Below are positions 31,436 through 45,143 of a stretch of 64,000 nt of DNA, piece after piece; the stretch's first letter is position 1, and every line of letters starts with the position of its first letter. The stretch comes from Alloactinosynnema sp. L-07 (lineage in GTDB: Bacteria; Actinomycetota; Actinomycetes; Mycobacteriales; Pseudonocardiaceae). The notes below the pieces were generated by a model that did not search any database, had not been told where the DNA came from, and saw only the letters and a list, made by a program, of their open reading frames with translations. A program made the translations under genes and the position numbers. The stretch covers positions 4,030,001 to 4,094,000 of the forward strand of contig NZ_LN850107.1 in NCBI RefSeq assembly GCF_900070365.1, written 5' to 3'.

Positions 31436-31840
31436 CTACCATTCGATTGCTGGGCAGCGGTCCATGACCATGCGTAGGCCTGCGGCGGTTGTGCGTTCGT
31501 AGGCGGGCTGGTCGATGACGTTCAGTTGGAACCAGACGGCCTTTGCTCCGATGGTGACGGCTTGGTCCGCGAAGGCAGGCGCGGCGTCGGTGCGGCGGAA
31601 GACATCCACGCAGTCGACCTCGAAGGGGATGTCGGCCAGGGAGGCATAGCCCTGTTCACCCCAGACGGTTTCCGCTGAGGGGTGTACTGGGACGATTCGT
31701 TTTCCCTTTCGCTGGAGGAATTTGGCTACTCCGTGTGCGGCGCGCGAGGGGTTGTCCGCCAATCCCACGATGGCCCAGGTCTGACATTCGTCGATGATCC
31801 AGCGGATCGTGTCCGGGTCGGCCCATGGTTCTGCTCGCAT
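31436..31840 (-). CDS. CoA-binding domain protein (YccU-like)
   Basis: A 134-residue Rossmann-fold protein of the succinyl-CoA-synthetase-like CoA-binding family. Typical segments are WAIVGLADNPSRAAHGVAKF, GKRIVPVHPSAETVWGEQGY, VDCVDVFRRTDAAPAFADQA and AKAVWFQLNV. The Cys of family members that use it (as in the WMQxG-like strand) is not present. Function unknown; may bind CoA or a dinucleotide. The ATG at 31840 is favoured over an upstream frame start because the homologous part begins there. Divergent from the NmrA-like gene 31 bases away. Confidence 0.8.
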   Translation of the reverse strand: MRAEPWADPDTIRWIIDECQTWAIVGLADNPSRAAHGVAKFLQRKGKRIVPVHPSAETVWGEQGYASLADIPFEVDCVDVFRRTDAAPAFADQAVTIGAKAVWFQLNVIDQPAYERTTAAGLRMVMDRCPAIEW

Positions 31841-31871
31841 CGTTCCAGGATGCCACTTGGTACCGTCAGGT

Positions 31872-32717
31872 GTGGAAGATCGACTTGTCACCGTCATGGG
31901 GCCTACCGGCAAGACCGGTCGGCACGTCGTCCAGCAGGCCGTTGAGCGAGGGTGGACGGTGCGGGCCGCTGGTCGGCGGCCTGCGGCGGCTGGGGAGTGG
32001 GTGCCGTTCGAGTGGGACGATCCGGGTACTTGGGAGCCTGCGTTCGCGGGTAGCGATGCGGCCTACATCCTCATTCCGTTCAACCATCCGGGCGCGCCCG
32101 AGCGTGCGCCTGAGGTGATTGAGGCGGCGGTGCGGGCTGGGGTTCCGCGGATCGCGCTGCTGTCGACCGTCGATGTCGATCATGCGCCCGACGACGATCC
32201 CACCAAGGTCGCCGAGCGGACTCTCGCCGGGCTTCCCGTCCGGTCGACGATGGTGCGGCCGACGTGGTTTCTGGACAACTTCACCGTGGGGTCGTTCAAG
32301 GGCATGCTTGAGACGGGCGAGTTGCGGCTGCCCGCTGGTGATGGGCTGATCCCGTTCGTCGACACGCGGGATGTCGCGGCGGTCGCGGTGGCGGCTATGG
32401 CGGCGGGTGGGCCGGAAGGGGTGCTGCCGGTCACCGGGCCCGCGGCCGTCGACCACCACGTCGTCGCCGAGGCGTTGGCGGACGCGCTGGATGTTCCGAT
32501 GCGCTATGTCCCGGTGTCGGGTGCGGAGTTCGTCGATCTGTTGCGCGGCCGTGGGTTCGCCACCGAATACGGCGAGTTTCTCGCTGAGGCGCTGATCAAG
32601 GTGGCCGACGGGCGGCTGGAGTTGCCCGTGTCGGACACCGTGCCCCGGGTGGTGGGCAGGCCCGCGTACTCGGTGTCCGACTTCGCCAGGGACTACGCCG
32701 TGAACAGTCGCCCGTAA
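31872..32717 (+). CDS. NmrA-like NAD(P)-binding protein
   Basis: A 281-residue atypical short-chain dehydrogenase of the NmrA/YtfG group. The nucleotide motif is MGPTGKTGRHVVQQA near the start. VRSTMVRPTWFLDNF and PFVDTRDVAAVAVAAM are typical. Members are NAD(P)-dependent reductases or redox sensors. The GTG at 31872 gives a normal N-terminus, whereas upstream extension is in an unrelated frame. Its 3' end overlaps the racemase-like gene by 25 bases, convergently, so it is probably not part of that cluster. Confidence 0.85.
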   Translation: MEDRLVTVMGPTGKTGRHVVQQAVERGWTVRAAGRRPAAAGEWVPFEWDDPGTWEPAFAGSDAAYILIPFNHPGAPERAPEVIEAAVRAGVPRIALLSTVDVDHAPDDDPTKVAERTLAGLPVRSTMVRPTWFLDNFTVGSFKGMLETGELRLPAGDGLIPFVDTRDVAAVAVAAMAAGGPEGVLPVTGPAAVDHHVVAEALADALDVPMRYVPVSGAEFVDLLRGRGFATEYGEFLAEALIKVADGRLELPVSDTVPRVVGRPAYSVSDFARDYAVNSRP

Positions 32718-33475
32718 CCGAGGACGGCCGCCGGATCCACCCGCGCGGTGCGCAGGCAGTGCCACAGGCACGCCTGGTTCGACGTGACCACCGGCAGTCC
32801 CAGATCGGCCTCCAACGGCCCGATGGTGTCGACGCACCGCAGGCCGTTGCCCGCGATCACCACGCCGTCGGCGCCTGCTGGAATCGCGCGGCGGATCTGG
32901 TGGTAGACCTGTTCCGGGCGCACCTCCCACTGTGCGCCCGCGTCCCACAGTTCCCATGGTCGCAGGTCTCCGCCGACGTCCAACCGGTCCATGGCGACCG
33001 GCGGGAAACCGGCCGCTGTCAGGTACTCCCGCCCTGCGGCGACTATCTCGTCCTTGAACCAAGGTGGCACCAGGACGTACGGCGCCGTCATGCCCACCGC
33101 GTCCATGGCCGCGACGGTCGCCTGGGCGGCCGTCAGCGCGGGGATGCCCTGGGCGCGAACGCTTGCCTGCTCCGCGAAGGCTTTGTCGAACTCCGCTCCA
33201 CCGAGGAAGCTGCTGGTGGTGAAGCACACGCAGATCGCGTCGAGTCGCATTCCGCCGAAGCAGTCCAGGCCGCGGGCGATATCCGGGGACTCGGCCACCA
33301 CCCGCGCCTGGTCGCCGTACTCCGAGGTTCCCGGCCTGCGCGGGCTGGCGAAGCGGGCCGCGTTCACCGCGACCCCGGCCGGTGCCATGGCCCAGAACTC
33401 CGCCTCCGCCACCGGATCGTGGTCGATCACCAGGATGCCGAACGCGGCGCGCCAGCCCCAGCTGTCGGTGAGCAT
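32693..33475 (-). CDS. Asp/Glu racemase superfamily protein, maleate isomerase/EutA-like, lacking both catalytic Cys
   Basis: A 260-residue protein of the aspartate/glutamate racemase, maleate isomerase and arylmalonate decarboxylase group. Recognisable parts are GVAVNAARFASP near the N-terminus, CFTTSSFLGG, GNGLRCVDTIGPLE and PVVTSNQACLW. In maleate isomerases the first site is a CTS motif and the second a CTGLR motif. Here Thr86 and Gly209 stand in these places, so the two-Cys mechanism is not possible, though Cys84 and Cys214 lie near. It is the last gene of the cluster at 32.7-39.7 kb, 9 bases after the exporter gene. Possible roles are decarboxylation or ligand binding; I would not name a reaction. 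Confidence 0.8.
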   Translation of the reverse strand: MLTDSWGWRAAFGILVIDHDPVAEAEFWAMAPAGVAVNAARFASPRRPGTSEYGDQARVVAESPDIARGLDCFGGMRLDAICVCFTTSSFLGGAEFDKAFAEQASVRAQGIPALTAAQATVAAMDAVGMTAPYVLVPPWFKDEIVAAGREYLTAAGFPPVAMDRLDVGGDLRPWELWDAGAQWEVRPEQVYHQIRRAIPAGADGVVIAGNGLRCVDTIGPLEADLGLPVVTSNQACLWHCLRTARVDPAAVLGYGRLFTA

Positions 33476-33484
33476 CGGTCCTCC

Positions 33485-34402
33485 CTATTCGGCGGTGACC
33501 TTGGCGGGTTCGGCGGTGGAAGGCTTGGTGGCCAGCCGGTTCTCGGCGAAAGCGAGCGCGGCGAGGACGACAAGCGTGCCGACGATCATGTTCCAGGTGA
33601 TCGGCTCGCCAAGCAGGCCGACGCTGATCGCCACGGCGGTGACCGGCACCAGGTAGTTGACCGAGGACGCGGTGGCGGCTCCGGCGTCGGTGATGAGTCG
33701 GAAGTAGATCAGGTACGCGAGGCCGGTGCCGACCACACCGAGGAGCACGATGCTGACCACGACCGACACGCGCAGATCCGGGGTCTGCCAGGGGAAGAAC
33801 GGTGTGATGGCCGCCTGCAGGATACTGGCCGCGATCACCTGCGTGGTGGACGAGACCAGTGGTGGGATCCCCTTCTGCGACAACATCTTCCGCACATACA
33901 CCGTCTGCGCGGCATAGCACGCCGCCGCGGCGAGTACGGCCAACTGGCCGGGCAGCGAACCCAGTTCCCCGTCCTCGGCCCACGGCTTGATCACGATGAC
34001 AACACCGACGAAGCCGAGGCCGAAGCCCACGATCTTGCGCCACGTGGCCCGTTCGGTGTTGAGCGCGACCGTCGACGCGGCCAGGGTCAGCAGCGGGGTC
34101 GCCGCGATGAGCACGCCCGCCATCGCCGCGGTGGTGCGCTGTTCACCCCACGCCAGCAACAGAAACGGCGCGACCATGCCGAGAACCGCGGTGACAGCGA
34201 TGTGTCCCCACACCGCGGGCACCTTCGGGAGCCTGCCGCCGGTGAACCGCAGCACCGAGTAGAGCACAGCGGCGCCCAGCACCACCCGCACCAACACCAG
34301 TTGAGCCGGGGTCAGGCCGCCGACGGCGACCTTGATGAACGTGTAGCTGGCGCCCCAGATCGCGGCGAGCAGCAGGAACAGCATCAGGTTGACACGACTC
34401 AT
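33485..34402 (-). CDS. EamA/DMT-family transporter
   Basis: A 305-residue membrane protein with ten hydrophobic segments in two EamA repeats. First-repeat motifs are LAAIWGASYTFIKVAVGGLTPAQLVLVR; second-repeat ones are VNYLVPVTAVAISVGLLGEPIT. DMT proteins usually export amino acids or small metabolites. It sits in the middle of the putative biosynthetic cluster (12 bases after the TrpB2-like gene, 9 before the racemase-like gene), so it is a reasonable candidate for exporting the cluster product. Confidence 0.88.
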   Translation of the reverse strand: MSRVNLMLFLLLAAIWGASYTFIKVAVGGLTPAQLVLVRVVLGAAVLYSVLRFTGGRLPKVPAVWGHIAVTAVLGMVAPFLLLAWGEQRTTAAMAGVLIAATPLLTLAASTVALNTERATWRKIVGFGLGFVGVVIVIKPWAEDGELGSLPGQLAVLAAAACYAAQTVYVRKMLSQKGIPPLVSSTTQVIAASILQAAITPFFPWQTPDLRVSVVVSIVLLGVVGTGLAYLIYFRLITDAGAATASSVNYLVPVTAVAISVGLLGEPITWNMIVGTLVVLAALAFAENRLATKPSTAEPAKVTAE

Positions 34403-34414
34403 CTTCTGCGGTCC

Positions 34415-35779
34415 TTAAACGTGGGCGGGGGCGGGGATGCTGGCCAGCCCGAAGTCGAGGGCGTCGTCGGACAGCGCGTCGTCGGGCAGTTCACCGGCAA
34501 GGTAGCGCTGGTAGGCCACGAGATCGAAGTCCCCGTGGCCGGACAGGCCGAGCAGGATGGCCTTGCTGGTGCCGTCCTCGCGGCAGCGGATGGCCTCGTC
34601 GATGGCGCCGCGGATCGCGTGCGTCGACTCGGGGGCGGGCACGATGCCTTCGGTCCTGGCGAACAGCACGCCCGCCTCGAAGCAGTCGTTCTGCCGCACC
34701 GAGACCGCCTCCATCAGCTTGTCCTCGACGGCGCGGCTGATCAGCGGGGCGATGTTGTGCGCGCGCAGGCCGCCCGCGTGGAAGGCGGGCGGGACGAACT
34801 TGTGCCCCAGGGTGTGCATGCGGAACAGCGGCGTCAGACCCTGCGAATCGGCGTGGTCGTAGGCGATGCGGCCGCGGGTCAGCGTCGGGCAGGCGGCGGG
34901 CTCGACGGCGATGAGCCGCAGCTCCGGACCGCCGCGCAACTGGTTGCGCAGGAAGGGGAAGGCCAGGCCTGCCAGGTTGCTGCCGCCGCCCGCGGCGCCG
35001 ACGACGATGTCGGGGTAGTCGTCGGCGAGCTCCATCTGCTTGATGGCTTCCTGGCCGATGACCGACTGGTGGGCGCACACGTGGTTGAGCGCGCTGCCTC
35101 TGGTGTAGCCGTAGTCCGGGTTGGCGAAGGCGAACTGCAGCGCCTCCGACTTGGCGGTGCCGAGGCTGCCGGGGTGGTCGGGCCGTTCGCCCAGGATCGT
35201 GCGGCCCGCCTCGGTCTCGGTGCTGGGGCTGGCCGAGCAGGTCGCCCCGTAGGTCTCCATCAGGGTGCGCCGGTAGGGCTTCTGCTCGAAGCTGACCTTG
35301 ACCATGAAGACCTTGGCTTCCATGCCGAACAAGGCCGCGGCCAGCGCCACCGCGCTGCCCCACTGGCCCGCGCCCGTCTCGCCGACCAGGCCGGTCTTGC
35401 CCGCGAGCTTGTTGTAGTACGCCTGCGGGATCGCGGTGTTGGGCTTGAAGCTGCCGGTGGGCGCGACGCCCTCGTACTTGTAGTAGATCCGGGCGGGCGT
35501 GCCCAGCGCCTGCTCCAGCGCACGGGCGCGGTAGAGCGGGGTGCAGCGCCACTTGGCGTAGTGCTGGCGGACCGGCTCGGGGATCTCGAACTCGTCGGCG
35601 CTGCTCAGTTCCTGCTCGACCAGCGGCGGCGCCATCGTCCTGGCCAGCCCGTCGAAGCCCACCGGCTCGCGCGTCACCGGGTCGATGATGGGGGCCACCT
35701 CGCCGATGTCGGCGGCCGGGTTGAGCCAGGTGCGGGGGATCTCCGACTCGACGAGTTCGTACTTGATCGGATCGATCAT
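34415..35779 (-). CDS. TrpB2-like PLP-dependent enzyme
   Basis: A 454-residue fold-type II PLP enzyme of the TrpB2 (tryptophan synthase beta-like) family. Features include RCTPLYRARALEQALG, the PLP lysine K112 in PTGSFKPNTA, the catalytic glutamate E134 in GETGAGQWGSA, and the phosphate loop AAGGGSNLAG. TrpB2 and TrpB usually have His before the PLP lysine; here it is Phe111. There is no TrpA or other trp gene nearby. Within this cluster it could make a beta-substituted amino acid from serine or a related substrate (inference); housekeeping tryptophan synthesis is less likely. Confidence 0.88.
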   Translation of the reverse strand: MIDPIKYELVESEIPRTWLNPAADIGEVAPIIDPVTREPVGFDGLARTMAPPLVEQELSSADEFEIPEPVRQHYAKWRCTPLYRARALEQALGTPARIYYKYEGVAPTGSFKPNTAIPQAYYNKLAGKTGLVGETGAGQWGSAVALAAALFGMEAKVFMVKVSFEQKPYRRTLMETYGATCSASPSTETEAGRTILGERPDHPGSLGTAKSEALQFAFANPDYGYTRGSALNHVCAHQSVIGQEAIKQMELADDYPDIVVGAAGGGSNLAGLAFPFLRNQLRGGPELRLIAVEPAACPTLTRGRIAYDHADSQGLTPLFRMHTLGHKFVPPAFHAGGLRAHNIAPLISRAVEDKLMEAVSVRQNDCFEAGVLFARTEGIVPAPESTHAIRGAIDEAIRCREDGTSKAILLGLSGHGDFDLVAYQRYLAGELPDDALSDDALDFGLASIPAPAHV

Positions 35780-35801
35780 GTGCTTCGTCCTTAGTGTGTT
35801 A

Positions 35802-36476
35802 CTAGCGAACGGCTTCGGTGGCGAGCGATCCCTCGGACTGGAACAGCAGCGGATGGGCCTGGCTGATGCCCGCGACGACGGTCTCGTAGGGGAAGTCGGC
35901 GAACTCGCCGCGCATCCGCAGGAACTCCATGTGCTGACGGCCCTCTTCGTCGTACGGGTGGTAGAGGCTGTCCGCGCGGCCGTCGAAGTCCAGCGGGGCG
36001 ATCCGGTAGACGTGGCAGAGCAGCTTGTTGAACACGGGCGTGGCCTTCACCCAGTCGCCGCCGAGGAAGACCGAGACGAGGCTGTGGAAGCAGAAGACGT
36101 CCCCGCCGACGAGTTCACGCAGCCGCGGTGAGGACAGGTGGTTGCGGACGTCGCCGTAGACGATGCGGCTGGGGATGCCCAGCGCGCGCACGGCCGCGGC
36201 GTACACGATCGACTTGTGCACGCAGAAACCCATGCCGCGCTGGATGATCGCGCTCGCCTGGAACGCGCCGCGGGCCGCGTCGGCCCCGTAGACCTCGTAG
36301 TGCAGACCGTCCCGCACCGCGTAGTACAGGGCGACGGCGCGCTCGATCTCGCCGGTCGGGTCGCCCTTCTTGCGCAGTGCCTTCTCGGTGAACGCCTGGA
36401 CCACCGGGCTGGTGAAGTCCAGGAACTCGGTCTCCCGCAGGTCGTCGTCGGTGACCTGGGCAGTGGACTCGATCAT
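35802..36476 (-). CDS. Transglutaminase-like domain protein
   Basis: A 224-residue protein with the transglutaminase-like fold. The nucleophile is Cys85 in QRGMGFCVHKS, followed by the family pattern AAAVRALGIPSRIVYGDV. The His is probably H131 in FCFHSLVSV. The third position, usually Asp in a WxxxD pattern, is replaced in DWVKATPVFN. Bacterial members act as proteases, amidases or amide synthases; AdmF of the andrimid pathway uses this fold to couple an acyl carrier-bound acid to an amine. In this cluster an amide-forming role on the carrier protein is attractive but unproven. Spaced 16 bases from the upstream dehydrogenase-like gene. Confidence 0.8.
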   Translation of the reverse strand: MIESTAQVTDDDLRETEFLDFTSPVVQAFTEKALRKKGDPTGEIERAVALYYAVRDGLHYEVYGADAARGAFQASAIIQRGMGFCVHKSIVYAAAVRALGIPSRIVYGDVRNHLSSPRLRELVGGDVFCFHSLVSVFLGGDWVKATPVFNKLLCHVYRIAPLDFDGRADSLYHPYDEEGRQHMEFLRMRGEFADFPYETVVAGISQAHPLLFQSEGSLATEAVR

Positions 36477-36492
36477 GCTTCCTCTCCGTGGT

Positions 36493-37635
36493 TCACAGGC
36501 CGACCATCGCCGCGATGCGCTGGCGTTGGACTTCGGAGGTGCCCGAGTAGATCGGGCCCGCCACCGCGTTGCGCAGTTCCTTCTCCATCCCGTACTCGGC
36601 CAGGTAGCCGTAGCCGCCGTGGATCTGCACCGCGGCCATCGCCGAGGCGACGTTCGCCTCACTCACCACCAGCTTGGTGATGGCGATGTCGGTGGTGACG
36701 TTCTCCCGCCGGACGAGCTTCGCCGCGGTGTCGTAGAGCCACTTGCGGGAGGTCTCGACGCCGACCTTCATGTCGACGATCTTGTTGGACACGGACTGGA
36801 ACGAGCCGATCGGCTTACCGAACTGCGCACGCTCCTTGGCGTAGTCCACACAGGACTGGAAGCGGTGCTGCATCTCGCCTGCGTTGATGACGAACGAGGC
36901 CAGGATCTCCCATTTCATCACGTGGTCGAGCACCAGGAAGCCGGATCCGACCCCGCCGACCGCGTTCTCGCGCGGGACCCGGCAGTCGTCGAAGAACAGC
37001 TCACACAACGGCGAGGTCCGTAGGCCCATCTTGGCGACCGGCTTGCCCACGTGCAGGCCAGGGGTGTCCCGCTCGACGAGCAGGGCCGTGATCGCCGCGG
37101 GACTGCCCGGCTTCCCGGTCAGCGTGTAGACCACGTACAGCCCGGCGATCGGGCCGTTGCTCACGAACGCCTTGCTGCCGTTGAGGACGAAGACATCGCC
37201 GTCGGCCTTCGCCGTGGTGCGCATCGCCATCATGTCCGACCCGGCGTCGGGCTCGGTGATGGCGTGCGCGCCGATCGCCGAGCCGTCGCACACCATCGGC
37301 AGGTACTTGGCCTTGAGCGCGGCCGAGCCGTACCGCTGCAGGGCCACGCCGGTGCTGACCATGTGGGTCGACACCGAGAAGTTGAACCCGCCGTCGCGGC
37401 AGCTCTCGCCGAGTCCCTCCAGGACGTACATCGTGGTCAGCAGGTCCGCGCCCAGCCCGCCGAAGGCCGGGTCGAACGGCAGCCCGAGCAGTCCGGTGTC
37501 GCGCACGAGGTCCCAGGCGGACTGGTCGAACTCGCCCGCCTGGTCCCGTTCGATGTGACCGGCGCCCAGCTTCTCGCCGAGATCGACGATGGTCTTGCGC
37601 AGCGCGCGCTGCTCGTCGTTCCAGTCGATCACCAC
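36493..37635 (-). CDS. Acyl-CoA dehydrogenase-like flavoprotein, carrier-protein oxidase type
   Basis: A 380-residue acyl-CoA dehydrogenase family enzyme: AITEPDAGSDMMAMRTTA, AFVSNGPIAGLYVVY, FGKPIGSFQSV and AVQIHGGYGYLAEYGMEKEL are visible. The medium-chain catalytic Glu in the YEGT motif is replaced (IYSGTSE, Ser364). A glutamate instead occurs at E243 in MKWEILASF, the helix position used as base by isovaleryl-CoA dehydrogenase and by the prolyl-carrier-protein oxidases (PltE, RedW, CloN3 type). The length of 380 also matches those. With the ligase and carrier protein upstream, oxidation of a carrier-bound amino acid is likely. Confidence 0.88.
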   Translation of the reverse strand: MVIDWNDEQRALRKTIVDLGEKLGAGHIERDQAGEFDQSAWDLVRDTGLLGLPFDPAFGGLGADLLTTMYVLEGLGESCRDGGFNFSVSTHMVSTGVALQRYGSAALKAKYLPMVCDGSAIGAHAITEPDAGSDMMAMRTTAKADGDVFVLNGSKAFVSNGPIAGLYVVYTLTGKPGSPAAITALLVERDTPGLHVGKPVAKMGLRTSPLCELFFDDCRVPRENAVGGVGSGFLVLDHVMKWEILASFVINAGEMQHRFQSCVDYAKERAQFGKPIGSFQSVSNKIVDMKVGVETSRKWLYDTAAKLVRRENVTTDIAITKLVVSEANVASAMAAVQIHGGYGYLAEYGMEKELRNAVAGPIYSGTSEVQRQRIAAMVGL

Positions 37636-37650
37636 ATGCTCCTCGCCCGA

Positions 37651-38025
37651 TCAGTACTGGGAGAACCCGTCGGCATCCAGGTTGTGCCGCTCGTCGCCGC
37701 GCAGGGGCGGGTTGAAGATGCTGATCAGCTCGAGGTCCGCGCCCGCGTCGGCGATCAGGAAGTGGGCGTCGTGCTGGTCGAGCGCGTAGAGCACGCCCGG
37801 CTCGATCCGGTACGAGCGGCCGTCCGGGGTCTGCACCTCGCCCGCGCCCGCGATGCAGTAGCAGGCCTCCAGGTGCATTCGGTACTGCAGGCGGGACTTG
37901 GTGTTGGCCCGCACCACCGTGTGCGCGACCGTGAAGCCCATCGCGTCGGCACCCAGCAGGAAGCGGTAGCTCAGACCGTTGCCCCAGTCGACGCATTTCA
38001 CCTCGGACCTGGCACGCACGATCAT
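37651..38025 (-). CDS. Ectoine synthase-like cupin
   Basis: A 124-residue cupin, close to the usual 130-residue EctC. The EctC iron ligands known from the family are conserved in order and spacing: Glu53 (HLEACYC), Tyr80 (LYALD) and His88 (HDAHFL). The C-terminal strand IFNPPLRG is also EctC-like. The substrate pocket differs: where EctC has a Trp in an NWTSRR-like segment this has NGLSYR, and a Cys before the FNPPL motif is replaced (SIFNPP). No ectA, ectB or ectD is present. It likely cyclises a different gamma- or beta-amino amide. Its start overlaps the carrier protein stop (ATGA). Confidence 0.85.
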   Translation of the reverse strand: MIVRARSEVKCVDWGNGLSYRFLLGADAMGFTVAHTVVRANTKSRLQYRMHLEACYCIAGAGEVQTPDGRSYRIEPGVLYALDQHDAHFLIADAGADLELISIFNPPLRGDERHNLDADGFSQY

Positions 38026-38291
38026 CTCAAGCCCTCCTGGATCAACTCGGGGATGTGGGAACCGACGAAATCGTCGATGGCGTCGACCGACCGGAAGTTG
38101 TCCGGCGTCAGGTCGACCTCCTCGACCGGGATGTCGTAGCGCAAGCCAACCCAGGCGATGAGTCGGAGCAGCCCGAGGCTGTCGACGACGCCGTTGTCGA
38201 GCAGGTCGAAGTCATCGGCCAGTTCGTCGGCCCCGACATCGGGGGCGAACTCGGCCAGCACGAACCGTTTTATCTCAGCGAGCCGCGACAT
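38022..38291 (-). CDS. Stand-alone acyl/peptidyl carrier protein
   Basis: An 89-residue four-helix carrier protein. The phosphopantetheine attachment Ser38 is in NGVVDSLGLLRLI. The preceding acidic DDFDLLDNG loop and the length match the free carrier proteins of pyrrole-forming cassettes (PltL and CloN5 are about 88-89 residues). The ATG at 38291 is chosen because AAGGAG lies 9 bases upstream, inside the end of the ligase gene (17-base overlap). It would be loaded by the adjacent AMP ligase and serve the dehydrogenase-like enzyme. Confidence 0.9.
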   Translation of the reverse strand: MSRLAEIKRFVLAEFAPDVGADELADDFDLLDNGVVDSLGLLRLIAWVGLRYDIPVEEVDLTPDNFRSVDAIDDFVGSHIPELIQEGLR

Positions 38292-39720
38292 GTTCTCGAA
38301 CTCCTTCACGCGCCGATGCCTGTATTGCCGCGCGGTCGACCTTCCCGTTGGGACTGGCCGGGAACGGGTCGACCACGATGTCCATAGTGGACGGAATAGC
38401 CGTCCGGGGAAGCCGGGCCGCGCAGTGTTGTCGCAGCTGGACGCTGTTGAGCGTGGCGTCCGGACACAGCCGGACCACCGCGTGCAGCCGGTGGCCCGCC
38501 ACGTCGTCTGGCAGGCCGAGCACGACCGCCTCGTGGACCGCGGGGTGCGCGGTGACGATGTGTTCGACCTCGAGCAGGTTCGTCCGCACGCCCCGGACCT
38601 TGACCTGGAAGTCGGACCGGCCGTCGAGCCGCAGCACGCCGTCGGCGTCGCGGGTCACGTTGTCGCCGGTCCGGAAGTAGGTTCCCGCGCCCGCCGGGGC
38701 CTCGACCCAACTGCGGGCGGTGAGCGCGGGGTCGAGGTAGCGGCCGGACTGGAACGGCGTCGCGGTCCACAACTCCCCCGCGCCCGCCCCGGTGAGCACC
38801 TGGCCATCGCGGACGACCAGCGCCCGCACCCCGGCGATCGGTGTGCCGATCGGGGTGGCCAGCCCGCTGACCGGGTCGATGTCGTGGATAAAGCTGTCGT
38901 TGGTCTCCGTGGACCCGTAGACGTTGCGGAGGCGGGCGTTGGGGAACGCGTCGGGCAGCCGCGCGGCCAGCGCGGGCGGCATCGCCTCGCCGGTCGTGAC
39001 CAGTTCGCGCACGGCGGGGAAGCGTCGGCCGTCGGCGGCGTCGAGCAGCAGGCGGAAGAACAGCGGGACGGCCTGGACGACCTCGACGGCGGCCTCAGTG
39101 AAGACGCTGAGCAGGTATTTCCCGTCCACCGCACGGTCCTGTTCGGCCAGTACGACGTGTCCGCCCTTGGCCAATGTGGTCCACACGTCGAGCAGGCTGA
39201 GGTCGAAGTTCAGCGGGGCGTAGCTGAACACCACCGTGCCCGGCCCGATGCCGAACTCCGTGGCGGCCCAGTCGATGAACGCCGCCGTCGCGCGGCGCGG
39301 CAGGGGGACGATCTTGGGCGTCCCGGTCGATCCGGAGGTGGTCAGCAGCAAGCCGACCCCGTCGAGGTCCGGCACCGCAGCGGGCGCCCCGACCTCCTCG
39401 ACGGTGCGGGCGTCCGCGCGCAGCAGGAATCGGCATCCGGCCTGGTCGAGCAGGGCCGCGCGACTCCGCGCGCCAAGATCGACCGGCAACAGCAGACAGG
39501 GCCGTTCGATACGCGTGCACGCGGCGACCAAGGCGAGACCCGCGGGCGACTTGTGCGGAATGAGCGCCACCGGCTCGTCGCCCGGCAGTTCGGCCAGCAG
39601 TTCGGCTGCCCTGGCGACCTCGGACCGCAGGTCGCGGTAGCCGGTGGCCACCCCTTGCCACGAAAGCGCCGCGGCGGAATCACCGGGCCATAAATGACCT
39701 GCGGACGCGTCAGACATCAT
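38275..39720 (-). CDS. Free-standing AMP-dependent ligase (amino acid adenylation enzyme)
   Basis: A 481-residue adenylation enzyme. Core motifs are A3 LLLTTSGSTGTPK, A5 NVYGSTETN, A7 YFRTGDNV, A8 GRSDFQVKVRGVR and A10 PNGKVDRAA with the catalytic Lys. No condensation or carrier domain is fused. A hand alignment to GrsA suggests specificity-pocket residues D, L, L, Q, V, T, V, D, S. The initial D-L-L resembles prolyl ligases, but the late Asp would also suit a basic amino acid. First gene of the cluster, behind a 415-base promoter region. The start is one of two adjacent ATGs. Confidence 0.9.
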   Translation of the reverse strand: MMSDASAGHLWPGDSAAALSWQGVATGYRDLRSEVARAAELLAELPGDEPVALIPHKSPAGLALVAACTRIERPCLLLPVDLGARSRAALLDQAGCRFLLRADARTVEEVGAPAAVPDLDGVGLLLTTSGSTGTPKIVPLPRRATAAFIDWAATEFGIGPGTVVFSYAPLNFDLSLLDVWTTLAKGGHVVLAEQDRAVDGKYLLSVFTEAAVEVVQAVPLFFRLLLDAADGRRFPAVRELVTTGEAMPPALAARLPDAFPNARLRNVYGSTETNDSFIHDIDPVSGLATPIGTPIAGVRALVVRDGQVLTGAGAGELWTATPFQSGRYLDPALTARSWVEAPAGAGTYFRTGDNVTRDADGVLRLDGRSDFQVKVRGVRTNLLEVEHIVTAHPAVHEAVVLGLPDDVAGHRLHAVVRLCPDATLNSVQLRQHCAARLPRTAIPSTMDIVVDPFPASPNGKVDRAAIQASAREGVREHVAAR

Positions 39721-40135
39721 TCTCCCGACAATTCACGGCCGACAACGAGTTCGGCGAATAACGACATTGTTAATCGACATTGAGGACCGCGTCCGGGGGA
39801 GAATTCCCGGCCCGTTGCGGCAGAACATTAGCTACGAAATCCGCCCACGCCAAACCTCCATCGGAGTGATCGACTGAATCGAGACACCGCCGACAAGACC
39901 ACCCTGCGTCGACAATTCAGACCAATCCGGACAACCCGGATTGATCTTTACAGGTGAACGGAAGCCCTGGCCGGCCTAGTAATTCTGCATGCTCGATCAC
40001 CAACGGTGACGACACTCATTCGGGTCGGTGCATACACAGAATTAGCCGGATAAATGGGAACGGCGATGACGGCGCAAACCCATTACGCGCAATGGTCCAG
40101 CGGTGACTGGTACGAGTGAACTATGTGCGGATTTC
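39721..40135. promoter_or_regulatory. 415-base gene-free region upstream of the biosynthetic cluster, with a dyad
   Basis: No coding frame with plausible codon bias or homology is seen. CAATCCGG (39923-39930) and CCGGATTG (39936-39943) form a perfect 8-base dyad with a 5-base centre, about 200 bases upstream of the ligase gene. Nearer the gene, CGACATTG occurs twice (39762-39769 and 39775-39782), 13 bases apart. The region is more A/T-rich than its surroundings. It probably holds the promoter and control sites of the cluster. The unknown membrane protein gene ends at its other side. Confidence 0.5.
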
Positions 40136-40750
40136 TCAGCCGAGCCTGCGGCCCAGATCGTCGCGACCATTCCACGCCGCGGCGAATCCGTAGGCCAGGG
40201 CGGCGCCCAGCGGCCAGCCGACCACGACCCATCGCGATTCCAAACGTGGGGCGACCGGCAGCACGTCGCCGATCTTCGGCGCGGCCTCCACGACGAAGCG
40301 GGCTTCGGCCCAGGAGACGCCGACCTGCATGGCCAGCCACGCGGCCAGGCCCGAGCCGACCACGGCCGCGATCATGATCACCGGCCCGCGCCGCTCGCGC
40401 AGCATCCACACGCCCGCGCCGGTGACGACGCCCGCGCCGAGGCCGAGCAGCACGAACAGGACAAGATCGTCGAACCGGTGGTAGCTCTCGGCGCGCAGCG
40501 GGATCAGCTTGCCGCCCTCGGCCACCACGACGAGCTGCGCCGGGGCGAGCCGGGACCACAGCCAGCCGATCGCCATGCCGAACAGCGCGATGAACGACGC
40601 GATGCTCACCGCGGGCAGCAGATCGGCCTTGATCCGGACCTTCGGCCGCGGCTGGTGCCACAGCGGGAACACGGGCGGCGGCGGGGTCTCGACGCGGACG
40701 GCTGCCTCGGACACGGGGGTCTCGACCTCTGACTCCGTGGGTTCGGGCAC
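40136..40750 (-). CDS. Membrane protein, DUF2567-like (204 aa)
   Basis: A 204-residue protein: a Pro/Glu-rich cytoplasmic N-terminus (residues 1-40, with PPPPVFPLWHQPRP), then four hydrophobic segments (about 46-66, 97-115, 124-144 and 176-194). The pattern of a first helix followed by WSRLAPAQLVVVAEGGKLIPL, then ESYHRFDDLVLFVLLGLGAG, is typical of the actinobacterial DUF2567 family of unknown function. The GTG at 40750 follows GGAGG. A longer upstream frame lacks family similarity. Confidence 0.75.
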   Translation of the reverse strand: MPEPTESEVETPVSEAAVRVETPPPPVFPLWHQPRPKVRIKADLLPAVSIASFIALFGMAIGWLWSRLAPAQLVVVAEGGKLIPLRAESYHRFDDLVLFVLLGLGAGVVTGAGVWMLRERRGPVIMIAAVVGSGLAAWLAMQVGVSWAEARFVVEAAPKIGDVLPVAPRLESRWVVVGWPLGAALAYGFAAAWNGRDDLGRRLG

Positions 40751-40994: not shown

Positions 40995-42032
40995 TCACAG
41001 CGAGTCGCTCAGCGCCTTGATGGGCATCTTGAGGTCGGCGAGCATGTCGAGGTCCTGCTGGGCGGGGCGGCCCAGGTTGGTCAGGTAGTTGCCGACGATG
41101 ATCGCGTTGACGCCGCCGAGCATGCCCTTCTCCGCGCCCAGGTCGCCCAGGGTCAGCTCCCGGCCGCCCGCGAAGCGCAGCATCGTGCGCGGCAGGGCCA
41201 GCCGGAACGCGGCGACGACGCGCAGCGCGTCCTTGCCCTCGATCGGGTCGTACTTCTCGTACGGGGTGCCGGGCTGCGGAATGAGGAAGTTCATCGGGAC
41301 CTCGTGCGGGTCCAGCTCGGCCAGCTGCACCGCGAACTCGGCGCGCTGCTCGTAGGTCTCGCCCATGCCGATGATGCCGCCGGAGCAGACCTCCATGCCC
41401 GCCTCGCGCACCATCCGCAGGGTGTCCCAGCGCTCTTCCCACGAGTGGGTGGTGACGACGTTCGGGAAGTGCGACTTGGCCGTCTCGAGGTTGTGGTTGT
41501 AGCGGTGCACGCCCATCGCGACCAGCTCGTCGACCTGCTCCTGGGTGAGCATGCCGAGCGAGCAGGCGATCTGGATGTCGTTGCCCGACTCTCGGATCGC
41601 CTTGATGCCCTCGCGCACCTGCGAGAGCAGGCGGGCGTCGGGCCCGCGCACGGCGGCGACGATGCAGAACTCGGTGGCACCCGTCTCGGCGGTCTGGCGG
41701 GCGGCCTCGACCAGGCCGGGGATGTCCAGCCACGCGGAGCGCACGGGGGTCGGGAAGCGGCCCGACTGCGAGCAGAAGTGACAGTCCTCGGGGCAGCCGC
41801 CGGTCTTGACGCTGACGATGCCCTCGACCTCGACCTCCGGGCCACACCACTTCATCCGGACGTCGTGGGCCAGCGCGAGCAGATCGTCGAGCCGGTCGTC
41901 ACCCAGGCGCAGGACCTGGAGCACCTGCTCCTCGGACAACCCTTCGCCGCGCTCAAGCACCTGGTCCCGGGCGACGGCGAGGATGTCGCCTGCGATCGAG
42001 CTGTCCTGCGTGTGCTCGGCGGTTGCCGTCAC
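40995..42032 (-). CDS. bioB: Biotin synthase
   Basis: A 345-residue radical SAM enzyme. The cluster motif is [11 protein letters not shown] (CxxxCxxC), the second-cluster ligands are in [15 protein letters not shown] and the Arg of LRFAGGRE, and [12 protein letters not shown] is typical. It inserts sulphur into dethiobiotin. The GTG at 42032 is preceded by GAGGAGG with good spacing, so the longer upstream frame is rejected. It is followed by bsaP and preceded by bioD with a 69-base gap. Confidence 0.96.
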
Positions 42033-42101
42033 TGGTGCCTCCTCGTGGTTCCGGTCCGGGCAAGTCTGCCTCATGGCGGACGAGCCCGGCTGCGATGTCG
42101 C

Positions 42102-42824
42102 TCACGCGCCGCTGGAGACCTGCTCGACGAACTCCTTGACGTCGAACTCCCCGCCCAGGGACGGAGCCAGCGACCTGCGTGCGACCTGGGCGAACTCGTC
42201 CGGGTCGAGCGCTCCGGCACCCGCAGGGAACACCCCTACCAGGGGTGCGCCCGCGACCGAGGGGAGATCGTCGAGGTTGAGCAGGGCGGCGAGATCAGGC
42301 TCGGCGGGCCACGACCCGACCACGACCCCGGCGCAGGTGATCCCCCGCCGGTCGAGTGCCTCGGCGGTCAGCGCGGTGGCGTTGAGCGTACCCAACCCGG
42401 CCTCGGCCACGATCAGCGTCGGCGCGGCCAGCGACCAGGCCACATCGGCGAGCGTGCCCCCATCGGGGTCGAACCGGACCAGCAGCCCGCCCGCGCCCTC
42501 GACCAGCACCAGGTCATGGGTCACCGCGAGCTCACCGACCGCCTGCGCGACCTCCGACGGCCGCACCGGGGGCATCCCCACCCGCCGCGCGGCGGTGTCG
42601 GGGGCCAACGGGTCGGGGAACCGACGCAACTCGCGGGTGGTCACTGCTCCGGCGAGTCTGCGCACGTCATCGAGGTCGCCCGGCTCATGCGCGGCGACAC
42701 CTGTCTGTGCGGGCTTGAGCACGGCCACCCGCCGCCGGAGTGCCAACGCGAGCGCGGCGACCCCAGCCGTGACGACGGTCTTGCCGACGCCCGTGCCGGT
42801 CCCGGTGATCACAAGAACACTCAC
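42102..42824 (-). CDS. bioD: Dethiobiotin synthetase
   Basis: A 240-residue ATPase with P-loop [11 protein letters not shown] at residues 8-18, LKPAQTG, and [10 protein letters not shown] with the family Glu. It closes the ureido ring on diaminopelargonate using CO2 and ATP. GTG start. Divergent from the mycoredoxin gene with 68 bases between. In many actinobacteria bioF stands between bioA and bioD; here an opposite-strand redoxin gene occupies that place. Confidence 0.94.
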
Positions 42825-42892
42825 GTGGTGCAGGTTAGACCTGGCAATTGGTTATGGCCGCCACACCCCAACACTCTGGATATGGTCGAACC

Positions 42893-43144
42893 GTGAGCAA
42901 CGACGTCCTCATCTACAGCGCCGACTGGTGCGGCGACTGCCGCCGAGCCAAGTCCTGGCTGCGGGCCAACACCGTCCCCTTCACCGAGATCGACGTCGAG
43001 CATGACGACACGGCCCGGGACCTGGCGGTAGAGATCGCGGGCGGACGCAAGAACATCCCGGTGATAGTCCTGCCAGACGGAACAGTGTTGATAGAGCCGA
43101 CCAACACCGAACTAGCCGACGCCCTAGGCGTTCCAGTCGCCTAA
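42893..43144 (+). CDS. Mycoredoxin/glutaredoxin-like protein
   Basis: An 83-residue thioredoxin-fold protein. The active site is ADWCGDCRRAKSWL (two Cys spaced CxxC), followed by the glutaredoxin cis-Pro strand NIPVIVLPDGT and a C-terminal helix. The family reduces mixed disulfides, in actinobacteria those with mycothiol. The GTG at 42893 gives a normal N-terminus (SNDVLIYSADW). TATGGT lies 7 bases upstream, so the mRNA may be leaderless. It lies between bioD and bioA on the other strand. Confidence 0.88.
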   Translation: MSNDVLIYSADWCGDCRRAKSWLRANTVPFTEIDVEHDDTARDLAVEIAGGRKNIPVIVLPDGTVLIEPTNTELADALGVPVA

Positions 43145-43183
43145 CAAGGCGAACACCAGACAGGCACCCACGGCGCCAGGCAA

Positions 43184-44452
43184 CTACCCCACAGTCGCCG
43201 CCGCGATCGCTCCCGCACAAATCAAAGCAACATCATCAGTGCCACTGACAAACGGCGGCATCGTGTAAATCAAGTCCCGGAACGGCCGCAGCCATACGCC
43301 TGCCCGCACAGCGGCCTCAGTGGCCGCTCTCATATCCACCGGATGATCAAGCTGGATCACCCCGATAGCCCCCAAAACCCGAACATCCTGAACACCAGCA
43401 AGATCACGCGCCGGAGTCAGGCCCGCGGTCAGCTCCGCCTCGATCCGTTTGACCGTCCCCCGCCAGTCCCCCTCAAGCAGCAGATCAATCGAAGCCAGTG
43501 CCACGGCCGACGCCAACGGGTTGCCCATGAACGTCGGCCCGTGCGCCAACACCGGAACCTCCCCCCGCGAAATCCCATCAGCGACCCGCGCCGTGCACAA
43601 CGTCGCAGCCATGCTGAGGTATCCCCCAGTCATCGCCTTTCCAACACACAGCACGTCCGGACTGACTCCCGCGTGATCAGCGGCGAACAGCTCCCCAGTC
43701 CGCCCAAACCCCGTAGCGATCTCGTCAAAGATCAGTAGCACGTCATGCGTCAAACACAACTCGCGCAGCACATGCAGATAGCGCGGGTCGTGGAAACGCA
43801 TGCCGCCCGCACCCTGAACCACCGGCTCGACGATCACCGCGGCGAGTTCGTCAGCATGAGTCTCGATCAAAGTCGCCAAATGCGCGACGTAGTCATGGTC
43901 GAACTCGGCGGGCGGGGCATCGGCGAACACCTGCACCGGCAGCACCCCGCGCCACAGAGAGTGCATCCCGCCATCCGGGTCACACACGCTCATCGGGTTG
44001 AACGTGTCGCCGTGGTAGCCGCCGCGCCAGGTCAGCAGCTTCGTCTTCGCCGGGTTGCCGGTCGACCGCCAGTACTGCAGGCACATCTTGATCGCGACCT
44101 CGACCCCGACCGAGCCCGAGTCGCACAGGAACACGTGCTGGAGCGGCTCCGGGGTGATCTCGACCAACCGGGCGGCCAGGCGGACCGCGGGCTCGTGGGT
44201 GAGTCCGCCGAACATGACGTGGCTCATCTTCCCGGCCTGCTCGACCAGCGCGGCGTCGAGGACGGGGTTGCGGTAGCCGTGGATGGCCGCCCACCAGGAC
44301 GACATGCCGTCGACCAGCTCGCGCCCGTCGGCCAAGGTCAGCCGAACGCCCTGGGCCGAACGCACGACGAGAGGGTCCTGCGTGCCTGGCATCGGGCCGT
44401 AGGGGTGCCAGACGTGTGCGCGGTCGAGTGCGATCAGCTCTTCTGGAGACAC
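43184..44452 (-). CDS. bioA: Adenosylmethionine-8-amino-7-oxononanoate aminotransferase
   Basis: A 422-residue class III aminotransferase. BioA motifs include HVWHPYGPM at the start, [46 protein letters not shown], the PLP lysine in VGKAMTGGY, and [13 protein letters not shown]. It makes 7,8-diaminopelargonate, using SAM as amino donor in the classical enzyme. The GTG at 44452 is preferred. The last third (43184-43850) uses more A- and T-containing codons than neighbours. It opens a biotin gene group that lacks bioF. Confidence 0.94.
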
Positions 44453-44462
44453 ACCAGGCAGG

Positions 44463-45143
44463 CTATCCGGCCAGCTCCTTGCGCCGGGCGACCAGGCGAG
44501 CCAGGTCACGCCCCTGGTCGGTGGGCAGGATCCACTCCCCGGGCGGCACGGCGATCCGCACGGCGGGCCCAGGTGTGACCGTCACGTTCAACTCGCCCAC
44601 GCCGGGAACGTGCAGCGTCGCCCGGCGCGCGACCATCACCTGTTCGACGGCCCCCACCGAGCCGAGGTCCACGACGGGCCGCACCGTGCGCAGCCTGCCG
44701 CGGCTGCCGACCAGTGTGATCCGGTTGGCCCCCACCAGCAGTTCCAGGCCCCGCGACCCCCGCGCGGGCCACGGCACCTCGATCGCCGAGTCGGCGAGGT
44801 CGGCGCTGTAGGGGCAGAGGATCTTCTTGCCCGCGCGGCTCGCCAGGAGGTGACCGGCCGTCCCGAAGGCGAGGACGGCCAACGGGGCCGTCACCCAAGG
44901 CAGCCACAGCGACCCGACATAGGCCCCCGCGAGACCACCGAGAACCGCCGCGGCGACGGGCCAGCGGCGGGGCTTGAAGCGGTGGACGGCGAAGTAGGCG
45001 CCGCCCACGAACAGCAGGAGAGCGGGGATGCCGAGCCCGGGCAGCCAACCGTCGAGCAGGAAGGTCGCGACGATCCCGAGGATCGGGCCGAGGGCGACCA
45101 CGAGCAGCAGATGTGGCCGAACGCCACGGAGGCGCGCTGTCAC
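44463..45143 (-). CDS. Hypothetical membrane protein (226 aa)
   Basis: Four hydrophobic segments fill residues about 10-100 (for example [19 protein letters not shown]). A cytoplasmic domain follows with beta-like strands such as [20 protein letters not shown] and [15 protein letters not shown]. No known motif. It ends 10 bases before the bioA start on the same strand, so it could share that transcript. The start is one of several GTG codons near 45143. Confidence 0.65.

Follow-up and report, generated by a model that had tools for sequence, protein, structure and literature searches.

What does a compact cluster of eight genes, one of which codes for a cupin resembling ectoine synthase (EctC), make in an actinobacterium? 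This question is raised by positions 32693-39720 of the window, i.e. the whole 64-kb stretch analyzed here (64,000 nucleotides from Alloactinosynnema sp. L-07, positions 4030001-4094000 of a 7.4 Mb single-contig genome). Homology and gene content make it quite likely that five of the genes, coding for a ligase, a carrier protein, the cupin, an oxidase, and a transglutaminase-like protein (hereafter the core), form an aminopyrrole cassette of the showdomycin type. That this cassette is coupled to a TrpB2-type enzyme also encoded in the cluster is the scheme that we favor on balance. The original prediction, made from the DNA letters, gave TrpB2 no role; on this evidence, it is the distinctive part of the cluster.

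All eight open reading frames (ORFs) are on the minus strand and tightly packed, as had been described. The ligase and carrier genes overlap by 35 nt and the carrier and cupin genes by 4 nt, and the remaining gaps measure 15, 16, 22, 12, and 9 nt when the transglutaminase-like gene is taken as 35802-36476 (its mechanical ORF runs from 36662, and a start near 36476 was chosen from relatives such as locus L041). The families named at that time were all recovered: AMP-binding, carrier-like (weakly), Ectoine_synth, Acyl-CoA_dh, Transglut_core, TrpB2, EamA, and Amdase. The grouping exceeds chance, since the gene order recurs and the core recurs across phyla.

Relatives were collected with the cupin as the query. 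A protein search returned 661 proteins at E <= 1e-3, with 120 among the matches listed, and a scan of genome contigs gave at least 564 confirmed cupin relatives, the best 80 of which were kept; together with 20 loci from relatives, they form a set of 100 loci, 96 of them distinct. Since these loci were picked by similarity to the window cupin, the counts given here are not frequencies in nature, and the class labels come from tblastn identity thresholds within about 10 kb, with a crude gene caller. Of the 96 distinct loci, 85 combine ligase, carrier, EctC-like cupin, and oxidase genes, in agreement with the prediction that the genes form one biosynthetic unit and travel together; all five core genes are found in 67/96, and 7/96 have none of the other four core genes above thresholds. 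The core is spread from actinobacteria to proteobacteria, including Vibrio coralliilyticus, Grimontia, Alteromonas, and Pseudovibrio. A ligase lies near the cupin in 23 of the 24 neighborhoods viewed, L039 being the exception; these belong to the 25 cupin matches of 53% identity or more found in 100 genomes, counting the own one, and the match in G015 was left out. Among the best 80 of at least 564, the nearest named relatives of the cluster are Actinokineospora, and a cupin with at least 81% identity is present in 8 of the 16 genomes of the genus, own genome counted. Other Actinokineospora and Actinophytocola oryzae (L116) share the complete gene order, and the arrangement of the window (core, TrpB2, drug/metabolite transporter [DMT], and maleate-isomerase-fold gene) is seen in 7/96 distinct loci, with L116 as the one outside the genus.

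The cupin (37651-38025; PF06339, Ectoine_synth, E 6.4e-33) resembles EctC in fold family, in several core residues, and in its iron ligands (Glu57, Tyr84, and His92 in P. lautus), which are conserved in 101/101 cupins. It differs from EctC in the loss of the equivalent of Asn38, a substrate residue of ectoine synthase that is replaced by Ala, Thr, or Cys in 101/101 cupins, in a three-residue insertion after a Trp, and in the absence of ectA and ectB among the eight genes. Ectoine biosynthesis was rejected on this last point and because the three cupins of the genome (100, 67, and 59% identical to the window cupin) all belong to one subfamily, that of the window cupin. We propose that the cupin is a glutamine cyclase forming a cyclic amidine. 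A 2019 study reports that Halomonas EctC produces the Gln-derived amidine as a side reaction and describes the function of EctC-type proteins encoded apart from ectoine operons as not yet clear (PMC6344544). Cupins of the same subfamily are also found alone, with no ligase match nearby, in L079, L105, L113, L120 (Corynebacterium), and L106 (a Roseivivax metagenome-assembled genome), where the free Gln-derived amidine could perhaps serve as a solute.

The stand-alone adenylation enzyme, or ligase (38275-39720; Pfam AMP-binding), has the code DLLQVTVDSK, read at what we take to be the PheA code positions, placed by motif. This code (DLLQxTxDSK) is nearly unchanged in 92 ligases from all cluster classes, including those with a C-glycosidase, which serve here as proxies for SdmC of showdomycin biosynthesis; thus, all classes probably share one substrate. 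We propose that it is 2-amino-1-pyrroline-5-carboxylate, i.e. cyclized Gln, and Asp330, a Val in the prolyl ligase 6o6e, would suit such a cationic amidine. The free-standing carrier (38022-38309) has no Pfam match and weak NCBIfam carrier matches; it lies beside the ligase in relatives, and the Ser-Leu of its DSL motif is found in at least 95% of 91 homologs. A link to cispentacin, considered because the carrier resembles AmcB, was dropped because the ketosynthase-like enzymes that its pathway employs along with 2-oxoglutarate (PMC10698177) are absent here.

The acyl-CoA-dehydrogenase-like oxidase (36493-37635; Acyl-CoA_dh) has the prolyl-acyl carrier protein dehydrogenase 4irn as its best solved relative (E 2e-91), although it scores below the NCBIfam cut-offs for PigA and RedW, and the Glu of its WE motif is conserved. 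Oxidation of a carrier-bound acyl group by a flavoenzyme of this kind, as had been expected, remains its probable role, and we propose that it acts on a carrier-bound ring. The transglutaminase-like protein (35802-36476; PF01841, Transglut_core) has Cys and His in 72/72 sequences, with the usual Asp replaced by Thr, Ser, or Ala, and its AlphaFold2 model matches transglutaminase and NAT folds; we propose that it is a Cys enzyme releasing the product by thioester hydrolysis. It had instead been suggested that proline is loaded and oxidized to a pyrrole-2-carboxyl carrier, which the transglutaminase-like enzyme would couple to a diamino acid, the cupin closing an ectoine-like ring. The proximity of the oxidase to prolyl-carrier dehydrogenases and the amide synthase GdmF, of transglutaminase fold, among the structural matches speak for this scheme. 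However, six of the nine positions compared differ between the ligase code, common to all classes, and that of 6o6e, ligases and cupins of these types also accompany a C-glycosidase, and none of the eight genes encodes a diamino acid partner, so that the proline scheme is not supported and we regard it as very improbable. Prolyl-carrier-to-pyrrole cassettes of the PltF/L/E type share with the window a ligase, a carrier, and an oxidase of the acyl-CoA dehydrogenase type, whereas the window differs from them in its ligase code and in having a cupin and a transglutaminase-fold protein.

A closer counterpart is the sdm cluster of Streptomyces showdoensis. As summarized in a review (PMC8724604), showdomycin biosynthesis begins with the cyclase SdmE, which converts L-Gln to 2-amino-1-pyrroline-5-carboxylate; this amidine is activated by SdmC and carried by SdmD, and oxidation and hydrolysis give an aminopyrrole acid. 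The YeiN-like SdmA and the phosphatase SdmB act later, the final steps to the maleimide are non-enzymatic, and the pathway is described as incompletely understood. The core of the window matches the A domain, carrier, cyclase, oxidation, and hydrolysis of this description, and we infer from gene content that SdmE is EctC-like. The ring-closing role predicted for the cupin remains the probable one, but not its place at the end of the route, since the cyclase of the published pathway acts first, on L-Gln. In place of the C-glycosynthase (YeiN-like) and the phosphatase of sdm, the window has TrpB2 and a DMT transporter, and no tblastn match to a YeiN-like C-glycosynthase was found in the window or in window-type loci. 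Loci with sdm-like content do exist: they contain the core and a C-glycosidase of the Indigoidine_A family (PsuG/YeiN-type), adjoined by a HAD phosphatase in L103, the sole locus where the neighbor gene was typed. S. showdoensis is not among the best 120 of 3894 matches to the C-glycosidase of L119.

Kosinostatin biosynthesis offers a partial likeness. According to two papers, the kstB genes are responsible for loading an acid and forming a pyrrole, and the kstC genes use phosphoribosyl pyrophosphate (PMC7918784, PMC5321127); "ectoine" is among the antiSMASH types given for the large region with this cluster, and a nearly complete kst cluster is reported from Nocardiopsis alkaliphila (PMC7918784). 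L074, from N. alkaliphila, carries the same core with TrpD/A/F/C, the likely counterparts of the kstC genes that set kst apart from the window, and G100:C55, presumably the contig of L074, has a pair of neighboring ketosynthase genes. Nicotinic acid, the reported kosinostatin precursor, and the nadA/B/C genes near the window cluster suggest nicotinate as an alternative substrate; against this, none of the 100 other loci matches nadA, nadB, nadC, or bioB. In our searches, the statement that no cluster with this set had been described was borne out for the full eight genes and not for the five-gene core, given showdomycin and, in part, kosinostatin.

What accompanies the core varies. The 86 loci with ligase, cupin, and oxidase comprise 25 with TrpD/A/F/C (Trp-type), 22 with TrpB2, 5 with both, 14 with the C-glycosidase, and 20 with none of these, and the C-glycosidase never co-occurs with Trp-type genes (0 loci). 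TrpD, TrpA, TrpF, and TrpC homologs gave no tblastn match in the 64-kb window. The transglutaminase-like gene is present in 22/22 TrpB2, 14/14 C-glycosidase, 5/5 double, and 7/25 Trp-only loci, and the maleate-isomerase-fold gene in 14/14 C-glycosidase, 9/22 TrpB2, 0/30 Trp-type, and 14/20 partnerless loci. In a FastTree phylogeny of the concatenated core (85 loci), seven window-type rows are sister to eight C-glycosidase-type loci (support 0.764), several deep nodes being weak, and TrpB2 clusters are scattered (e.g. L116 with L027 and L096, or L034 with L063 and L071) while their TrpB2s form one clade, a pattern that an exchange of modules would produce. More tentatively, the EctC-like proteins could mark a widespread carrier-bound aminopyrrole factory with interchangeable ring-coupling modules, TrpB2 leading in the window to an aminopyrrolyl-alanine that would autoxidize to an electrophilic maleimidyl-alanine.

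The TrpB2-type PLP (pyridoxal phosphate) enzyme, our candidate for C-C coupling (34415-35779), scores 628.9 bits with NF009057 (TIGR01415), well above the cut-off of 366, and has K112 and E134; among cluster TrpB2s, the catalytic Lys is kept in 24/24 rows and the Glu in 23/24. In a tree of 59 rows, the TrpB2s of clusters with core, transglutaminase-like gene, and TrpB2 form one clade of 26 rows, including two re-fetched cluster genes, with support of 100/100. Their sister set (10 rows, 99/96) consists of five from Trp-type clusters and five others, and the three loci opened among the latter (L157-L159) all have TrpD, TrpF, and TrpC, one having TrpA. Residue 340, which aligns with the Tyr of "GLDY" in TrpB 5kin, separates these groups: it is Ala in the window enzyme and throughout the first group (24/24 rows, 23 distinct), Tyr in 10/10 sister-set rows, and Tyr (10), Phe (2), or His (1) in 13 other TrpB2s. 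In the sequences compared, clusters for which a bicyclic indole analog would be expected thus retain an aromatic residue, those with the core alone have lost it, and this pattern is our main argument for the aminopyrrole as the nucleophile. R390 was dropped as a carboxylate binder because 6hul also has an Arg there.

Two other roles of TrpB2 were weighed. The core might make an aminopyrrole while TrpB2 does not join it to serine through a C-C bond, acting instead by N-attachment, as a serine deaminase, or by making another beta-substituted alanine that is joined later. TrpB-type enzymes are promiscuous, Ala340 shows at most a changed pocket, and the ATP-grasp amino acid ligase family gene of some TrpB2 loci (five by clustering; typed in L053 and L058) would allow later joining; yet TrpB2 occupies the place of the C-glycosidase or TrpD/A/F/C genes of other classes with its catalytic Lys and Glu kept, and we consider this option rather unlikely. 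Less probable still is a bystander TrpB2, serving in indole salvage or in supply or self-protection against a tryptophan antimetabolite, the product being a simple aminopyrrole or maleimide. This would fit the existence of the partnerless class with SMR and DsbA-type genes (14 loci), the two further TrpB2 genes and the canonical trpC-trpB-trpA group of the genome, and a TrpG-TrpE-type anthranilate synthase family, possibly for self-protection against a tryptophan analog, near eight TrpB2-type loci (L034, L049, L057, L059, L063, L071, L072, and L073) and L103, of which the single member in L072 was typed. However, the TrpB2s of the clusters group in a clade of their own, in which a pocket residue is changed, and all 61 genomes searched have a TrpB-family match, so that salvage would hardly need this gene.

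In the favored aminopyrrole-TrpB2 scheme, the cupin would cyclize L-Gln to 2-amino-1-pyrroline-5-carboxylate, the ligase would activate this compound and load it on the carrier, the dehydrogenase would aromatize the carrier-bound ring, and the transglutaminase-fold Cys enzyme would release 2-amino-pyrrole-5-carboxylate (APC), four steps that we derive from gene content and from homology with the route published for showdomycin. TrpB2 would then make aminoacrylate from serine or phosphoserine, and attack by a nucleophilic carbon of APC would give beta-(aminopyrrolyl)alanine (calculated [M+H]+ 214.082). Finally, the DMT protein would export the product, which may autoxidize to a maleimide, and the maleate-isomerase-fold protein might act on the ring by decarboxylation, deamination, or maleimide handling. 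We infer the TrpB2 step, its product, and this last step. Several observations weigh against the scheme. The attack site on APC and the serine donor are guesses, and the position of residue 340 in the aromatic wall of the indole pocket (presumably F306 in Salmonella and Y301 in Pyrococcus) is our assumption. Because the first TrpB2 group is one clade, Ala340 may reflect a single event instead of 24 independent ones. The maleate-isomerase-fold gene is missing from 13/22 TrpB2-only loci and the DMT gene from 12/22, being present in 10/22. L116 has the gene content of the window while its core is placed elsewhere in the tree, and L157 (G009:C5:126000-145900), a Trp-type cluster, has ligase, carrier, oxidase, and transglutaminase-like matches and no detectable cupin. 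The proposed link to sdm is drawn from a review and from gene content, and nicotinic acid, the precursor reported for kosinostatin (PMC7918784, PMC5321127), conflicts with a Gln substrate shared by all classes.

The EamA/DMT transporter (33485-34402; PF00892) is our proposed exporter. The Amdase-family protein (32693-33475), which shares the arylmalonate decarboxylase/maleate isomerase fold, has Phe and Gly at the catalytic Cys places in 41/41 sequences, as set by motif and alignments. A possible further member is the NmrA-like NAD(P)-binding protein (31794-32717, plus strand), whose gene is convergent and overlaps the 32693-33475 gene by 25 nt; homologs with 60-87% identity lie near the cluster in L041 (= L029), L043, L045, and L116 and about 3.6 kb off in L030, with no match in L042 and L044. 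The base composition of the cluster is not unusual, and a promoter and terminator scan of 39600-40200 found nothing. The flanking genes are housekeeping ones (biotin genes at 40995-44509, nadA/B/C, and a NUDIX/NrtR-like gene), a neighborhood that is not conserved in the other loci.

Other loci showed variants of their own. Fourteen partnerless loci (L023, L036, L076, L077, L085, L086, L090, L092, L093, L104, L108, L109, L111, and L114; L092 being Vibrio coralliilyticus) combine the core with MarR, DsbA-like, small multidrug resistance (SMR) transporter, and Cys-less maleate-isomerase-fold genes. In the same genome as the window, L022 (7290400-7310300) is a third related cluster, with TrpD/A/F/C and a core devoid of the transglutaminase-like gene, surrounded by ketosynthase, aminotransferase, MaoC, thioesterase, and S-adenosylmethionine synthetase genes. 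A LanM-type lanthionine synthetase gene, typed in L035 and with homologs in the other three loci, adjoins the clusters of core, TrpD/A/F/C, and TrpB2 in L021 (same genome, 3319400-3339300), L035, L098, and L157, a hint that a tryptophan-like amino acid and a modified peptide may be used together. L158 and L159 have carrier, TrpD, TrpB2, TrpF, and TrpC matches and no ligase, cupin, oxidase, or transglutaminase-like matches within 20 kb, and some loci with TrpB2-type clusters have a methylaspartate mutase gene (typed in L073).

Tryptophan isosteres may already have appeared in print; we found no TrpB2 or tryptophan-isostere version of such a pathway in the open-access literature. With TrpB2 as the partner, the product of the window cluster may be an unknown amino acid rather than a nucleoside. 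If so, showdomycin chemistry would have been transferred from a nucleoside to an amino acid, and a set of EctC-like proteins now labeled as ectoine synthases may gain a testable function. The cluster classes suggest that several partner modules draw on one heteroaromatic building block, and in the window they would point to an amino acid not yet described and to a TrpB2 whose altered pocket could be of use in biocatalysis.

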